Below, in pieces: positions 18,323 through 22,895 of a stretch of 64,000 bases of DNA (positions are counted from its first letter, which is position 1; each line of letters starts with the position of its first letter). A program made the position numbers and the translations under genes. The notes below the pieces were generated by a model that did no database searches, was not told the origin of the DNA, and was given only the letters and a program-made list of their open reading frames with translations. This stretch comes from Acinetobacter boissieri. Its GTDB lineage: Bacteria; Pseudomonadota; Gammaproteobacteria; Pseudomonadales; Moraxellaceae. The stretch is taken from positions 1 to 64,000 of the forward strand of contig NZ_FMYL01000008.1 of NCBI RefSeq assembly GCF_900096955.1, read 5' to 3'.

Positions 18323-19726
18323 TCAATACTCAGATGCTTCTGATATTTGTTTAATTAATAGGTCTATTGCCTGAATAATATTATCTTCCATTTCAAAAGA
18401 ACAATTTATACGGATATGATTTTGCTTTTTATCTTTGTGATAAAAAAGAATACTTGGCGCTATTCCAATATTCTTCTGAATCATTTTTTCATAAATATGT
18501 TTACTGTCAACTTCTTGAGGTAATGTCACCCAAAGAAAATAGCCAGATGGATAATAATGCACAGTGCAGTTAGGCAAGCGTGTGGTTAAATAGTTGTAAT
18601 ATTGCTCTTTAATGTTTTTTAATTTGATACGCAACCCTTTTAAGTGTTTTTCATAATGACGATGGGATAAATAATCTACCAATGAATTTTGAATAAATGC
18701 GTTGACAGAAATTGTACTCATTAACTGTAAATGTTGAATATGCTCTGAAAATTTTCCCGCATAAACCCAACCAATACGAAAACTTGCACCTAATATTTTT
18801 GAAAAAGAAGAACAATGCAACACCATCTTATGCTGATCATAATATTTCATAGATTGTGGCTTTTTATGGCCATAGTAAAGCTCTTCATAAACATCATCTT
18901 CTATCAAATACACATCATGTTGATAAAGTAATTGTGCAAGTTTAGATTTAATTTCATCACTTACGGTAAATCCAATCGGATTATGGCTATTGAGCATGAG
19001 CAAACAGACTTTAATTGGATAGCTAGTAATTGCTTTTTCAAAAGCGTCTAAGTCTAATCCATGTTCTAGATGCTCTGGAATACTGATGACTTTTAATCCA
19101 AGATTTTCCACAGCCTGCCATGCGCCATAAAATATAGTTTCTTGTAGCAAAATATAATCACCTGCTTTAGTCATAGCCCTCAAACATAGGTTTAGAGCAT
19201 CTAGACCACCGGAGGTAATAACAATATCAGATGGAACTGTTGGAATACCTTGCATACAGTAACGTTGTGCGATCATTTTTCGAAGATTGTAATTTCCAGG
19301 GGGTAAACTCGGCATTTGCTCATAGCCAATAGGATATTTTGCTTGTTGTGCCACGGTTTGCATAAGCTTTGGAGAGTACAGCAATCGGCTATTCGGGAAT
19401 GCACTACCGAATGGTACAATGTTCTCGGATTGAATTGACTTTAAATATCGAAATACTAGTGAGTTGATCTCTATTTTGTCATTGATCATGACTCTTTTAG
19501 CAAGGGCTGTTTGCACAGGGTTTTCGGCAATGAAGTAACCTAATTTCTCTTTAGAATACACCAACCCTTGCGCTTCTAATTTTTGATAAGCATTCATTAC
19601 CGTAATTAAACTAAATCCTGAAATTTCGACTTGTTGCCTTAAAGAGGGTAATTTTTCATGAGGTTTCCATGTTTTCGTTTCAATTAAATATTTTAAGCTT
19701 AATGCAAGTTGTTCTGATTTATACAT
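18323..19726 (-). CDS. MocR-type regulator (GntR HTH + aminotransferase fold)
   Basis: 467 residues. Residues 1-70 are a GntR winged helix (KLPSLRQQVEISGFSLITVM, NAYQKLEAQGLVYSKEKLGY). Residues about 110-460 are a fold-type I aminotransferase: 'ITSGGLDALNLCLRAM', 'LLMLNSHNPIGFT' (NxHNPxG), 'EDDVYEELYY', and the PLP Schiff-base lysine in 'HCSSFSKILGASFRIGW' (about Lys309). MocR proteins sense PLP or an amino compound and usually control a divergent neighbour; here the divergent side is a 675-bp gap with decayed sequence and then an unknown membrane protein. Target unknown. Confidence 0.88.
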   Translation of the reverse strand: MYKSEQLALSLKYLIETKTWKPHEKLPSLRQQVEISGFSLITVMNAYQKLEAQGLVYSKEKLGYFIAENPVQTALAKRVMINDKIEINSLVFRYLKSIQSENIVPFGSAFPNSRLLYSPKLMQTVAQQAKYPIGYEQMPSLPPGNYNLRKMIAQRYCMQGIPTVPSDIVITSGGLDALNLCLRAMTKAGDYILLQETIFYGAWQAVENLGLKVISIPEHLEHGLDLDAFEKAITSYPIKVCLLMLNSHNPIGFTVSDEIKSKLAQLLYQHDVYLIEDDVYEELYYGHKKPQSMKYYDQHKMVLHCSSFSKILGASFRIGWVYAGKFSEHIQHLQLMSTISVNAFIQNSLVDYLSHRHYEKHLKGLRIKLKNIKEQYYNYLTTRLPNCTVHYYPSGYFLWVTLPQEVDSKHIYEKMIQKNIGIAPSILFYHKDKKQNHIRINCSFEMEDNIIQAIDLLIKQISEASEY

Positions 19727-20401: not shown

Positions 20402-20875
20402 ATGTATTTTTGGAATACGAAAGCTTTAGCAAAAGCATTGTCAGATAACACTTTAGAAAAAAAGCATTATAAGAACTACTATTTAATGACCGCATTACTC
20501 ATCACTTTAGTATACTACTACGGCATGTATTCACCTTATTTAGATTTAAAAGTGGTTGGTTTCGAGAGTATTTCAACGCTAATTATCCTCTATATAGGGA
20601 TTCAAAGTGCGTATAAAGCCAATGGTGGTGACACAGGAAATCATTTTCTTGGCAGAATAACAGCATTATCATTCCCTATTTTAATGCAAACAACAATAGC
20701 CGGTATTATTTTTGGCTTAATTCTGTTTGGTTTATACTCTATACTCAATTTGGCAGGAACTGCTTTTGATGACTGGTTTGAATGGTCTATTTCAGCGTTT
20801 ACGATCTTCCTTCAAATCTTATTTTTTACACGGCTAGTCTTTTATATGAAGCAAGTGGCTCAGCATCAACTCTAA
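20402..20875 (+). CDS. Unknown four-helix membrane protein
   Basis: 157 residues with four hydrophobic helices at about 28-45 (YLMTALLITLVYYYGMYSPY), 55-70, 88-118 and 128-148. The short N-terminus is basic. No motif or family recognised. It stands alone: the gene downstream is convergent with only a 24-bp gap, and the upstream 670 bp holds no intact gene. TTTAAAGTC precedes the ATG without a strong ribosome site. Confidence 0.7.
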   Translation: MYFWNTKALAKALSDNTLEKKHYKNYYLMTALLITLVYYYGMYSPYLDLKVVGFESISTLIILYIGIQSAYKANGGDTGNHFLGRITALSFPILMQTTIAGIIFGLILFGLYSILNLAGTAFDDWFEWSISAFTIFLQILFFTRLVFYMKQVAQHQL

Positions 20876-20899: not shown

Positions 20900-22060
20900 T
20901 TATTCAATAAAATAATGCGCTGCAAAATGGGCATCATTGCCAATAATGTCAAATACATCTTCACGTAAAGACATACCAGCGCATTCATCGCCAACCATCC
21001 ATAACCCTAAAGTAGGTAATCTACCCTCGTACAACGGCGTATCAGCCCAACGCTGTACCACATAACCATGCTGATCATAATCTTTAAAATAAAAACTTCC
21101 TGATGCCTCCCCACAGTCTTTACTATTTTGCAATATATGAATATTTGCACCTTCACGCGCTAAAATAGGCTTACGAACCCATTTTCCAGAGTAATTCTCT
21201 GTCGAATCATAGGCATGAGACTCTAGCAGAAGTGGATGATTTGGAAAACGTTTCCACAATTCAATTAAAATGGCTTTATTTGATAGTAACATTTTCCAGC
21301 ACGGTTCAATCCACTGTATATGCGGTTGTATATACTGTGAAAATTGTTCTTGCCAAATCCACTCCCATGGATAAAGTTTAAATATATGCTGAATGGTTTC
21401 ATCATTTAAGTCGACAAAATTTAAACCATCCCAACCAATATTTTGCATGGATAATTCACTTACATTTAAGCCTGCTTGGAATGCAGTATCCATTAAATAC
21501 TCTAAATTCCCCCAGTCTTCACGCCCTGCGCTTTGACAAGCAGAAAAATGTACTGTGGTCTGAGGCTGGTATAATAATTTCCAACGAGCAATCAATGCTT
21601 CATGAATGCTATTAAATTGATCACGATTTTTAATTGTTTCTACTTGCTCTAACCAATGCCATTGTGCGACTGATGCTTCAAGTAGACCTGTAGGAGTGTC
21701 GGCATTATATTCCAACATTTTTATAGTATGGCCATCATAAGCAAAATCAAATCTCCCATAAAGCATAGGTGATTTGGATTTCCATGTTTCTTCAATCAGG
21801 GGAATTGCGGATTGAGGTAATTCAAAATAATTTGGGTAATTCCCTCGTTGTATTAGATCTTCAACAATACTTAAGCACATTTGATGCAGTTGATTTGAGG
21901 CATCTTCAAGTTGTTCAATTTGTTTAAATGTAAATTCGTAGGCAACCCCTTCTGACCAATACATTGAACCATCTCTAGACGGCAAATTGTAATAGTCAAA
22001 TCCAATATCATTATGTTGTTTCTGCCAATTACTTCTTGGTGGTAAGATCACTCTTTTCAT
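20900..22060 (-). CDS. Glutathionylspermidine-synthase-like ATP-grasp protein
   Basis: 386 residues, matching the YgiC/YjfC family (the C-terminal synthetase part of Gsp). Seen motifs: 'MLYGRFDFAYDGHTIKMLEY' followed by NADTPTGLLE (substrate and Mg site), 'WVRKPILAREGANIHI' and 'GSFYFKDYDQHGYVVQRWAD' (ATP-grasp nucleotide site). Family members join an amine and a carboxylate with ATP; the true substrate of the free-standing form is not established. It starts 3 bp after the small lipoprotein gene, as ygiB-ygiC do in E. coli. Confidence 0.85.
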   Translation of the reverse strand: MKRVILPPRSNWQKQHNDIGFDYYNLPSRDGSMYWSEGVAYEFTFKQIEQLEDASNQLHQMCLSIVEDLIQRGNYPNYFELPQSAIPLIEETWKSKSPMLYGRFDFAYDGHTIKMLEYNADTPTGLLEASVAQWHWLEQVETIKNRDQFNSIHEALIARWKLLYQPQTTVHFSACQSAGREDWGNLEYLMDTAFQAGLNVSELSMQNIGWDGLNFVDLNDETIQHIFKLYPWEWIWQEQFSQYIQPHIQWIEPCWKMLLSNKAILIELWKRFPNHPLLLESHAYDSTENYSGKWVRKPILAREGANIHILQNSKDCGEASGSFYFKDYDQHGYVVQRWADTPLYEGRLPTLGLWMVGDECAGMSLREDVFDIIGNDAHFAAHYFIE

Positions 22061-22063
22061 GAT

Positions 22064-22432
22064 TTATCCTCCAGCAGAGCTTGATGTTGTATTCACGTAT
22101 CCAAATCCACCGCGAATGGGTGTAGATTTTGCATTTGGACGAATATTCGTTGAAATAATCGGTTTTTGATGAGAATGGCGACCAGAGGCTTTCACAACAT
22201 TTCCCAAATATCGTACTTTTCGAATCGTTTTATAATACTGCGGCCCCATATACAGCACACGACCACCCCACCCATTGCTATATTCTGTTGATTCTTGTTC
22301 ACACAGGTCTAAGGGCCAGTCTTGCTGACAACTGTATTGGTTATTATAAACATCTTGCTGTAATACATTCTGCTGACTACATGCTGTTAATAGCAAAGGA
22401 ACAACTACTAGCGATAACTTTTTAGTTCGCAT
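22064..22432 (-). CDS. Small lipoprotein, YgiB/DUF1190-like
   Basis: 122 residues. Signal peptide with lipobox LLTAC (Cys18). The mature part has a Cys pair region (YSCQQDWPLDLCEQESTEYS), 'GWGGRVLYMGPQYY' and a Gly/Ser-rich tail 'RGGFGYVNTTSSSAGG' like that of DUF1190 proteins. Located directly ahead of the Gsp-synthetase-like gene (3-bp gap). The pair probably acts together; the lipoprotein would sit in the outer membrane. Family assignment rests on tail, size and neighbour. Confidence 0.65.
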   Translation of the reverse strand: MRTKKLSLVVVPLLLTACSQQNVLQQDVYNNQYSCQQDWPLDLCEQESTEYSNGWGGRVLYMGPQYYKTIRKVRYLGNVVKASGRHSHQKPIISTNIRPNAKSTPIRGGFGYVNTTSSSAGG

Positions 22433-22550
22433 TAGCGTAAAACCTATATCCCTATTAAAAATATTTAAAATGATTGAAATAGTTATCTTATTTGTACTAA
22501 AAGATAAAGTACAGTATTAAAAATCTAAAAATCGTTAATTTGAGCACTTT

Positions 22551-22895
22551 ATGCGTACTTTATTACTGTCCAACATAGGATATCTATATTTAATTTGTAT
22601 TATCATCATAGATGTTTTAATGATGTTTTTTCTAACACAATCTAACGGCTTTACCCATTATAAAGCAACAATGTTAAGCCTGATTTGTTATGCCATTACA
22701 TTCGTATTTGCAGGGTTAAGCTTAAAATACTTACCCACTGGTATTGTATATGCGTTATGGGGTGGAATAGGTACTGTTGCATGTGCAATTGTTGCACATT
22801 TCTTTCTCGGGCAAAAATTAAGCTTTCCCATTTATGTCGGCATTGGCTTTATCGTTGTAGGTGTAATTATTGTAGAAATATTTTCAGAAAACTAA
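22551..22895 (+). CDS. Small multidrug resistance (SMR) family transporter, atypical
   Basis: 114 residues, four helices, aligning along its length with EmrE-type proteins: 'IGYLYLICIIIIDVLMMFFL', 'GFTHYKATMLSLICYAITFV', 'LPTGIVYALWGGIGTVACAI', 'IGFIVVGVIIVEIFSEN'. The universally conserved proton- and substrate-binding Glu14 of EmrE is Asp21 here, and the WSG turn is WGG. The fold and the Trp63 equivalent (Trp71) are kept. It may export a cation or guanidinium-like compound by proton exchange, but the Asp would change coupling or specificity. It stands alone between divergent and convergent genes. Confidence 0.82.
   Translation: MRTLLLSNIGYLYLICIIIIDVLMMFFLTQSNGFTHYKATMLSLICYAITFVFAGLSLKYLPTGIVYALWGGIGTVACAIVAHFFLGQKLSFPIYVGIGFIVVGVIIVEIFSEN

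Follow-up and report, generated by a model that had tools for sequence, protein, structure and literature searches.

Small multidrug resistance (SMR) transporters of the guanidinium, drug and polyamine subtypes carry a central Glu that is conserved and essential; carriers of guanidinium and of glycolipids are among the subtypes, and lipid-type members often have Asn at the central site (PMC9574504). MdtIJ is the SMR known to move spermidine, and the native substrate of the Qac type is called an open question in the same review (PMC9574504). In EmrE, any replacement of Glu14 except by Asp abolishes binding and transport (PMC9860125), and the E14D variant has been termed a 'dead mutant' against ethidium (PMC12464994). 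A search of titles and abstract openings for natural Asp-type SMRs found none, which does not prove their absence from the literature. Term searches did not return 'aspartate' from the review PMC9574504 or from PMC2716321, the latter being uninformative because 'glutamate' is likewise absent from it.

A second group of described systems, the YgiB-YgiC and YjfL-YjfM-YjfC modules, is built around ATP-grasp ligases. RefSeq annotates YgiC and YjfC of strain K-12 as peptide--spermidine ligases. The work behind this naming is reportedly that of Pederick et al. 2023. That study is cited in PMC12568646 and PMC10948618, and YgiC is reported to be without glutathionylspermidine synthase activity (PMC12506659). 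Operons of the PSP system contain DUF350, DUF1190 and the ligase plus polyamine genes (PMC11237479). No literature joining an SMR to YgiC, DUF350 or DUF1190 was found in titles and abstract openings, a search that subscription papers mostly fell outside; 'small multidrug resistance' and 'ATP-grasp' both occur in the text of PMC9964261, which deals with genomic islands.

An SMR protein with Asp at the central site

The window (the whole stretch of DNA that was analysed, 64,000 nucleotides) contains an intact ORF on the forward strand (22551–22895) for a protein of 114 amino acids with four predicted helices. The protein matches the SMR family PF00893 with 60.8 bits (Pfam cut-off 23.7), and a gap-free phmmer alignment over 103 residues places its residues 11–113 on residues 4–106 of EmrE, with Asp21 (codon 21, GAT, 22611–22613, forward strand) opposite Glu14. 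A preliminary description of the gene had proposed this assignment; it is borne out by the alignment, and no better alignment with a Glu at this position was found. It was also right that the residues flanking Asp21 differ from those of EmrE and that WSG of EmrE is replaced by WGG at residues 70–72 (W70-G71-G72, 22758–22766, forward strand). However, WGG is not a specific clue: it occurs in the four SMRs of the nectar clade and in several Glu-type SMRs of the Moraxellaceae, while the 26 Asp-type loci outside the nectar clade have WSG (25 loci) or WAG (one).

An AlphaFold2 model of the window SMR, based on an alignment of 7 sequences, has four helices at a mean pLDDT of 81.6, and Asp21 lies in its predicted helix 1 (residues 2–30). 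Among solved structures EmrE is the best match of this model (8uoz, E 9.2e-6), as it is in sequence, and Gdx-Clo is also among the closest. With EmrE/Qac-type SMRs the protein has in common the fold, the length, the Tyr switch, the pocket Trp and the GxG motif of TM3, the corresponding residues Y67, W70, G72 and G74 being invariant in 11 sequences (alignment A1). In contrast to these SMRs, it has Asp for the central Glu, scores far under every Qac cut-off and belongs to a type that co-evolves with a YgiC-type ligase, as described below. With Asp21 at the site where the guanidinium, drug and polyamine subtypes have Glu (PMC9574504), the window protein is classed with the SMRs on its fold and profile but stands as a variant outside these three subtypes.

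Profile and tree comparisons place the protein differently. The Qac/EmrE models are the best NCBIfam models for the window SMR and four relatives, with the window SMR reaching 76.5 and 67.8 bits against subtype cut-offs of 188 and 162 bits, respectively; the MdtI model gives the window SMR 49.4 bits and, with the relatives included, 43–49 bits (cut-off 103), so that all scores lie far under the cut-offs. In the phylogeny, the sister group of the Asp-type clade is a group of six proteins that includes E. coli MdtI, and the node joining the two has a support of 0.78 in a tree of 214 SMRs and of 0.90 in a smaller tree. Given the NCBIfam preference for Qac/EmrE, this affinity may reflect long-branch attraction. 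MdtI/MdtJ would resemble the Asp-type SMR further in that spermidine export by MdtIJ is close to the substrate proposed below. MdtIJ is, however, always paired and has the central Glu (PMC9574504), whereas the Asp-type SMR of the window is a single gene without an adjacent second SMR gene and has Asp.

The laboratory mutant E14D of EmrE has the same residue at the same site. It is, however, one engineered change in a pocket adapted to Glu, whereas in the Asp-type SMRs an entire clade has evolved with Asp. The failure of E14D on ethidium would fit a clade that no longer needs to handle bulky drugs.

The closest named relatives of the window SMR are those of A. apis, A. pollinis and A. baretiae (68–75% identity), and these relatives together with the rpoB tree would group the window with the bee/nectar Acinetobacter. 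Asp21 is encoded by GAT in all four orthologues of this clade. The four SMRs are under strong purifying selection, with pN of 0.10–0.18 and pS of 0.59–0.81 over six pairs; dS of these pairs is near or past saturation, and for three of them it could not be computed.

Distribution of Asp-type SMRs

Searching 175 Acinetobacter genomes with a homologue from outside the nectar clade as the query yielded a copy of at least 139 bits in 40 genomes, followed by the four nectar-clade copies at 66–79 bits and by other SMRs from 58 bits downward. Since both the tree and the common Asp place the nectar copies with the 40, the Asp-type SMR was counted as present in 44 of the 175 genomes. The two next-best matches beneath this set (L336 and L337) both have Glu. 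Asp is found in all 42 distinct intact copies of the clade, which come from 43 of the 44 genomes, the broken copy of genome G004 being omitted; the other Acinetobacter SMRs examined all have Glu (33/33, with one Acinetobacter row that is gapped at the site left uncounted). All Asp-type SMRs of Acinetobacter group together in the tree of 214 SMRs, as a monophyletic clade with a support of 0.92 that has no Glu members. In Acinetobacter, Asp thus marks an entire SMR clade. A natural Asp-type SMR in the window is supported, and relatives with Glu inside the clade, which would have spoken against the preliminary description, are absent among the 42 distinct copies.

Outside the genus, the best SMRs from other Pseudomonadales all have Glu (28/28 distinct proteins, out of 29 best places). 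A phylum-wide sample of 104 distinct proteins, taken from 100 stretches (30 loci and 70 regions) with weak matches, mostly below 35 bits, mostly left out, contains three SMRs with Asp. Two of these, L305 and L307, were judged by eye to be Gdx-like, and the third, L317, comes from an adjacent SMR pair; all three belong to other subfamilies. Asp at the central SMR site is rare and probably has more than one origin. The Asp-type SMRs described here are a distinct subfamily, found so far only in Acinetobacter.

The ligase module and its linkage to the Asp-type SMR

Divergently from the SMR gene and separated from it by 118 bases, a lipoprotein and a ligase are encoded on the opposite strand. The ligase (20900–22060, reverse strand, 386 aa) is a YgiC/YjfC-type ATP-grasp protein without an amidase domain. 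It matches PF03738 (GSP_synth) with 429.6 bits, shares 37% identity with E. coli YgiC along its full length and aligns with the YgiC structure 7uk8 over residues 1–386 (E 1.9e-79). The lipoprotein (22064–22432, reverse strand, 122 aa) contains an RGGFG motif and ends in GG. Pfam and NCBIfam searches gave no DUF1190 match; hhalign gave a probability of 97 to DUF1190 over the N-terminal part only, and RGGF and the C-terminal GG are common to both, making the protein a probable distant relative of DUF1190 (YgiB/YjfM). Of the 20 distinct Acinetobacter loci, 19 have the RGGF-like motif and 19 the C-terminal GG (in each case 21 of the 22 entries, in which A. pollinis and A. apis appear twice each and the one miss is a wrong frame). 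In ligase loci from other Pseudomonadales, RGGF occurs in 18/20 and the terminal GG in 16/20, two wrong frames being included in these counts; the wrong-frame picks are L085, L119 and L137. We propose the lipoprotein as the acceptor of the ligase, with its terminal Gly probably taking the amine.

Beside the ligase lies a gene on the forward strand (20402–20875) for a membrane protein of 157 amino acids, for which Pfam and NCBIfam searches gave no match and a predicted structure was unusable (pLDDT 43). Clear intact orthologues are found in 31 of the 175 genomes, every one of which has the ligase. Distant paralogues of this protein with 26–38% identity also exist elsewhere in Acinetobacter.

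In the divergent intergenic region, alignment of the four nectar/bee-clade species revealed an element TATCTTATTTGTAC-N6-ATAAAGTACAGT (22484–22515) that is present with changes across the four, including changes in A. baretiae, and is a candidate for a shared promoter or operator. Some other Acinetobacter also carry the half-site GTACTTTA ahead of their lipoprotein and ligase genes, and none was seen by eye in the 60 bases upstream of other SMRs. The nectar clade alone shows the element clearly, and a regulatory motif shared throughout the genus was dropped. The gene following the window SMR, which we take to be groEL, is absent from this place in A. apis, A. pollinis and A. baretiae, and a conserved groEL linkage was likewise discarded. 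A few kb from the module (18323–19726, reverse strand) lies a gene for a 467-aa protein, presumably of the MocR type, in which a regulator is joined to an aminotransferase-like domain; the 8 kb flanking the SMR on each side in A. pollinis and A. baretiae showed no such gene. The SMR was also considered as a mobile resistance gene and rejected as such: among the plasmid matches listed (at least 5000), all had less than 60% identity and none covered 80% of the window SMR.

The ligase (PF03738) is found in 46 and the Asp-type SMR in 44 of the 175 Acinetobacter genomes. Both are present in 43, the SMR alone in one and the ligase alone in three (Fisher p 4e-36). The sole genome with an Asp-type SMR and no ligase match is G004, in which the SMR copy is broken by three stops, and those with a ligase and no Asp-type SMR are G046, G090 and G152, the last of these 64% complete. 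G166 combines an intact SMR with a fragmentary ligase match and a broken gene for the 157-aa protein; it was scored as ligase-positive, and a negative score would raise by one the number of genomes in which an intact SMR lacks a ligase. Decay is apparently in progress at G166 (L080) and G004 (L343). At L077 of G046, a divergent ligase accompanies a 320-aa GG-tailed lipoprotein, with neither an Asp-type SMR nor DUF350; this arrangement is a third form of the module in Acinetobacter.

To what extent the neighbourhood is conserved, as the preliminary description had asked, depends on the lineage. SMR, lipoprotein and ligase are adjacent and divergent in the window, A. apis, A. pollinis and A. baretiae, and adjacent on one strand in G048 and G082; in most other loci, by contrast, the linkage is one of shared presence and not of adjacency. 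In 31 of 39 loci examined the SMR lies downstream of DUF934 and not of the ligase, and DUF934 itself follows a nitrite/sulphite-reductase-like gene in the one locus examined for this. A DUF934-SMR operon was considered and rejected: the genes are on the same strand in these 31 of 39 loci, but the gap is 520–1409 bases in 6, and a hairpin with a T-run lies in the gap in 11 of the 31. Where SMR and ligase are not neighbours and share one contig (18 genomes), the distance between them is 622 kb or more, and 622–774 kb by the shorter route if the contig is circular; in the rest of the non-neighbour genomes the two are located on separate contigs. Other genes seen repeatedly around the ligase are, as judged by eye, a TerC-like gene and purine genes.

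Losses were analysed on a single-gene, midpoint-rooted rpoB tree of 90 selected genomes out of the 175, which does not include the positive genomes G004 and G155 (no rpoB match), G058, G082, G112, G164 and G174. Dollo parsimony, which assumes loss only, gave 29 losses of the SMR and 27 of the ligase, with 26 cases in which both fall on one branch. Testing for correlated evolution by likelihood gave an LR of 85. Because one deletion could remove both genes where they are neighbours, the nectar clade and G048 were left out in a second analysis (82 tips), in which 20 of 21 ligase losses still coincided with SMR losses (LR 67.5). Urease, an unrelated gene of patchy occurrence, served as a control and gave an LR of 2.1 (Fisher p 0.73), and the 157-aa gene beside the ligase, present in 31 of the 46 ligase genomes, gave an LR of 55.9. 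A functional link between the Asp-type SMR and the ligase is well supported by these results, and this evolutionary linkage of an Asp-type SMR to a peptide-polyamine ligase module is what is new here.

In other Pseudomonadales, 20 ligase loci chosen from among the highest scoring of 56 places contained a DUF350 (YjfL-like) membrane protein in 18 cases and an SMR in none. DUF350 was above the cut-off in none of the 175 Acinetobacter genomes, with one weak match. The Acinetobacter module resembles YjfL-YjfM-YjfC and YgiB-YgiC in the ligase family, the GG-tailed lipoprotein and the gene order, and differs from them in having the Asp-type SMR, DUF350 staying under the cut-off throughout. The simplest reading is that the Asp-type SMR displaced DUF350, with the qualification that this rests on one genus, in which G046 and G090 possess the ligase but lack both proteins.

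Possible role of the Asp-type SMR

The joint retention and loss with the ligase suggests that the Asp-type SMR is a dedicated pathway part and not an ordinary drug pump. We see about an even chance (a probability of roughly 0.5) that the subfamily is the membrane transporter of the peptide-polyamine ligase module, proton-coupled for a polyamine or diamine. The module would then consist of the YgiC-type ATP-grasp ligase, the GG-tailed lipoprotein and the Asp-type SMR as its transporter. The latter would function as a dual-topology homodimer, since it is encoded by a single gene, the K/R bias is 0 to -1 across 11 Asp-type sequences and no second SMR is above the Pfam cut-off in the window genome (2.69 Mb, 29 contigs). 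That the acid, Tyr and Trp are retained points to cation transport coupled to protons, in which the paired Asp carboxylates would bind amine and protons in place of the Glu pair. As a proton antiporter, the protein may move a small polyamine or diamine, either spermidine or 1,3-diaminopropane, the main polyamine of Acinetobacter. Such a substrate would be in line with the amine reported for the ligase and with the precedent of MdtIJ (PMC9574504). The SMR could thereby set the amine pool on the side needed by the ligase or the modified lipoprotein, and it would assume the role that DUF350 (YjfL) has beside the ligase in other bacteria.

Several observations count against this reading, namely the NCBIfam preference for Qac/EmrE, the lack of an SMR in the 20 ligase loci outside the genus, the exceptions G046, G090, G152 and G166, the position of the SMR after DUF934 in 31 of 39 loci, and the existence of another polyamine exporter, AmvA, in Acinetobacter (PMC8458285). 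The SMR may also serve the ligase module with a different cargo, candidates being the small peptide-polyamine product, some other small cation and a lipid-linked group carried by the lipoprotein. Co-loss identifies the partner and not the substrate, and guanidinium and glycolipid carriers exist among the SMR subtypes; lipid-type SMRs, however, often have Asn (PMC9574504), whereas the Asp clade keeps the acid, Tyr, Trp and GxG in 11 sequences, and we regard a different cargo as possible but rather doubtful. That Asp simply does the job of Glu in an ordinary Qac/EmrE-like exporter of hydrophobic cations would agree with the best NCBIfam models of the window SMR and four relatives and with Asp being the only substitute that keeps EmrE binding (PMC9860125). 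Nevertheless, an ordinary exporter is unlikely, in view of NCBIfam scores that all fall far short of the curated cut-offs, of an E14D variant called dead against ethidium (PMC12464994) and of a loss together with a YgiC-type ligase that is unexpected for a drug pump.

The genes could also be gained and lost jointly in an indirect manner, with SMR and ligase meeting the same ecological need, e.g., envelope or osmotic stress, through separate pathways. Their separate locations in most loci examined and the recurrence of TerC-like and purine genes near the ligase would be compatible with such a need, but the near one-to-one coincidence, which is tighter than that of the 157-aa protein, and the adjacency of the genes in the nectar clade, G048 and G082 make this improbable. 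Finally, losses of the SMR are frequent in Acinetobacter, and Asp might have arisen by chance or through decay in a gene that is losing its function. With Asp kept in every distinct intact copy, Tyr, Trp and GxG in 11 of 11 aligned sequences, and pN far under pS in the nectar clade, this can be given hardly any weight.

The preliminary description had suspected that a natural Asp-type protein may have a different substrate or coupling. As regards the substrate, this suspicion is reasonable and receives indirect support from the tight co-occurrence with the YgiC-type ligase. Returning to the polyamine or diamine carrier, we tentatively suggest, as a further step that is somewhat more likely to fail than to hold, that the Asp-type SMR represents a fifth subtype among the SMRs, namely a dedicated carrier that is homodimeric and proton-coupled and that displaced DUF350 (YjfL) as the partner of a ligase modifying a GG-tailed surface lipoprotein. 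If this is true, DUF350 itself would probably be a transporter of the same substrate. A whole natural Asp clade offers a tool for studying how the central acid sets proton coupling and substrate choice, and the link to the ligase supplies a native-substrate hypothesis for an SMR. Conversely, the Asp-type SMR gives a testable handle on the poorly understood YgiB-YgiC and YjfL-YjfM-YjfC modules.
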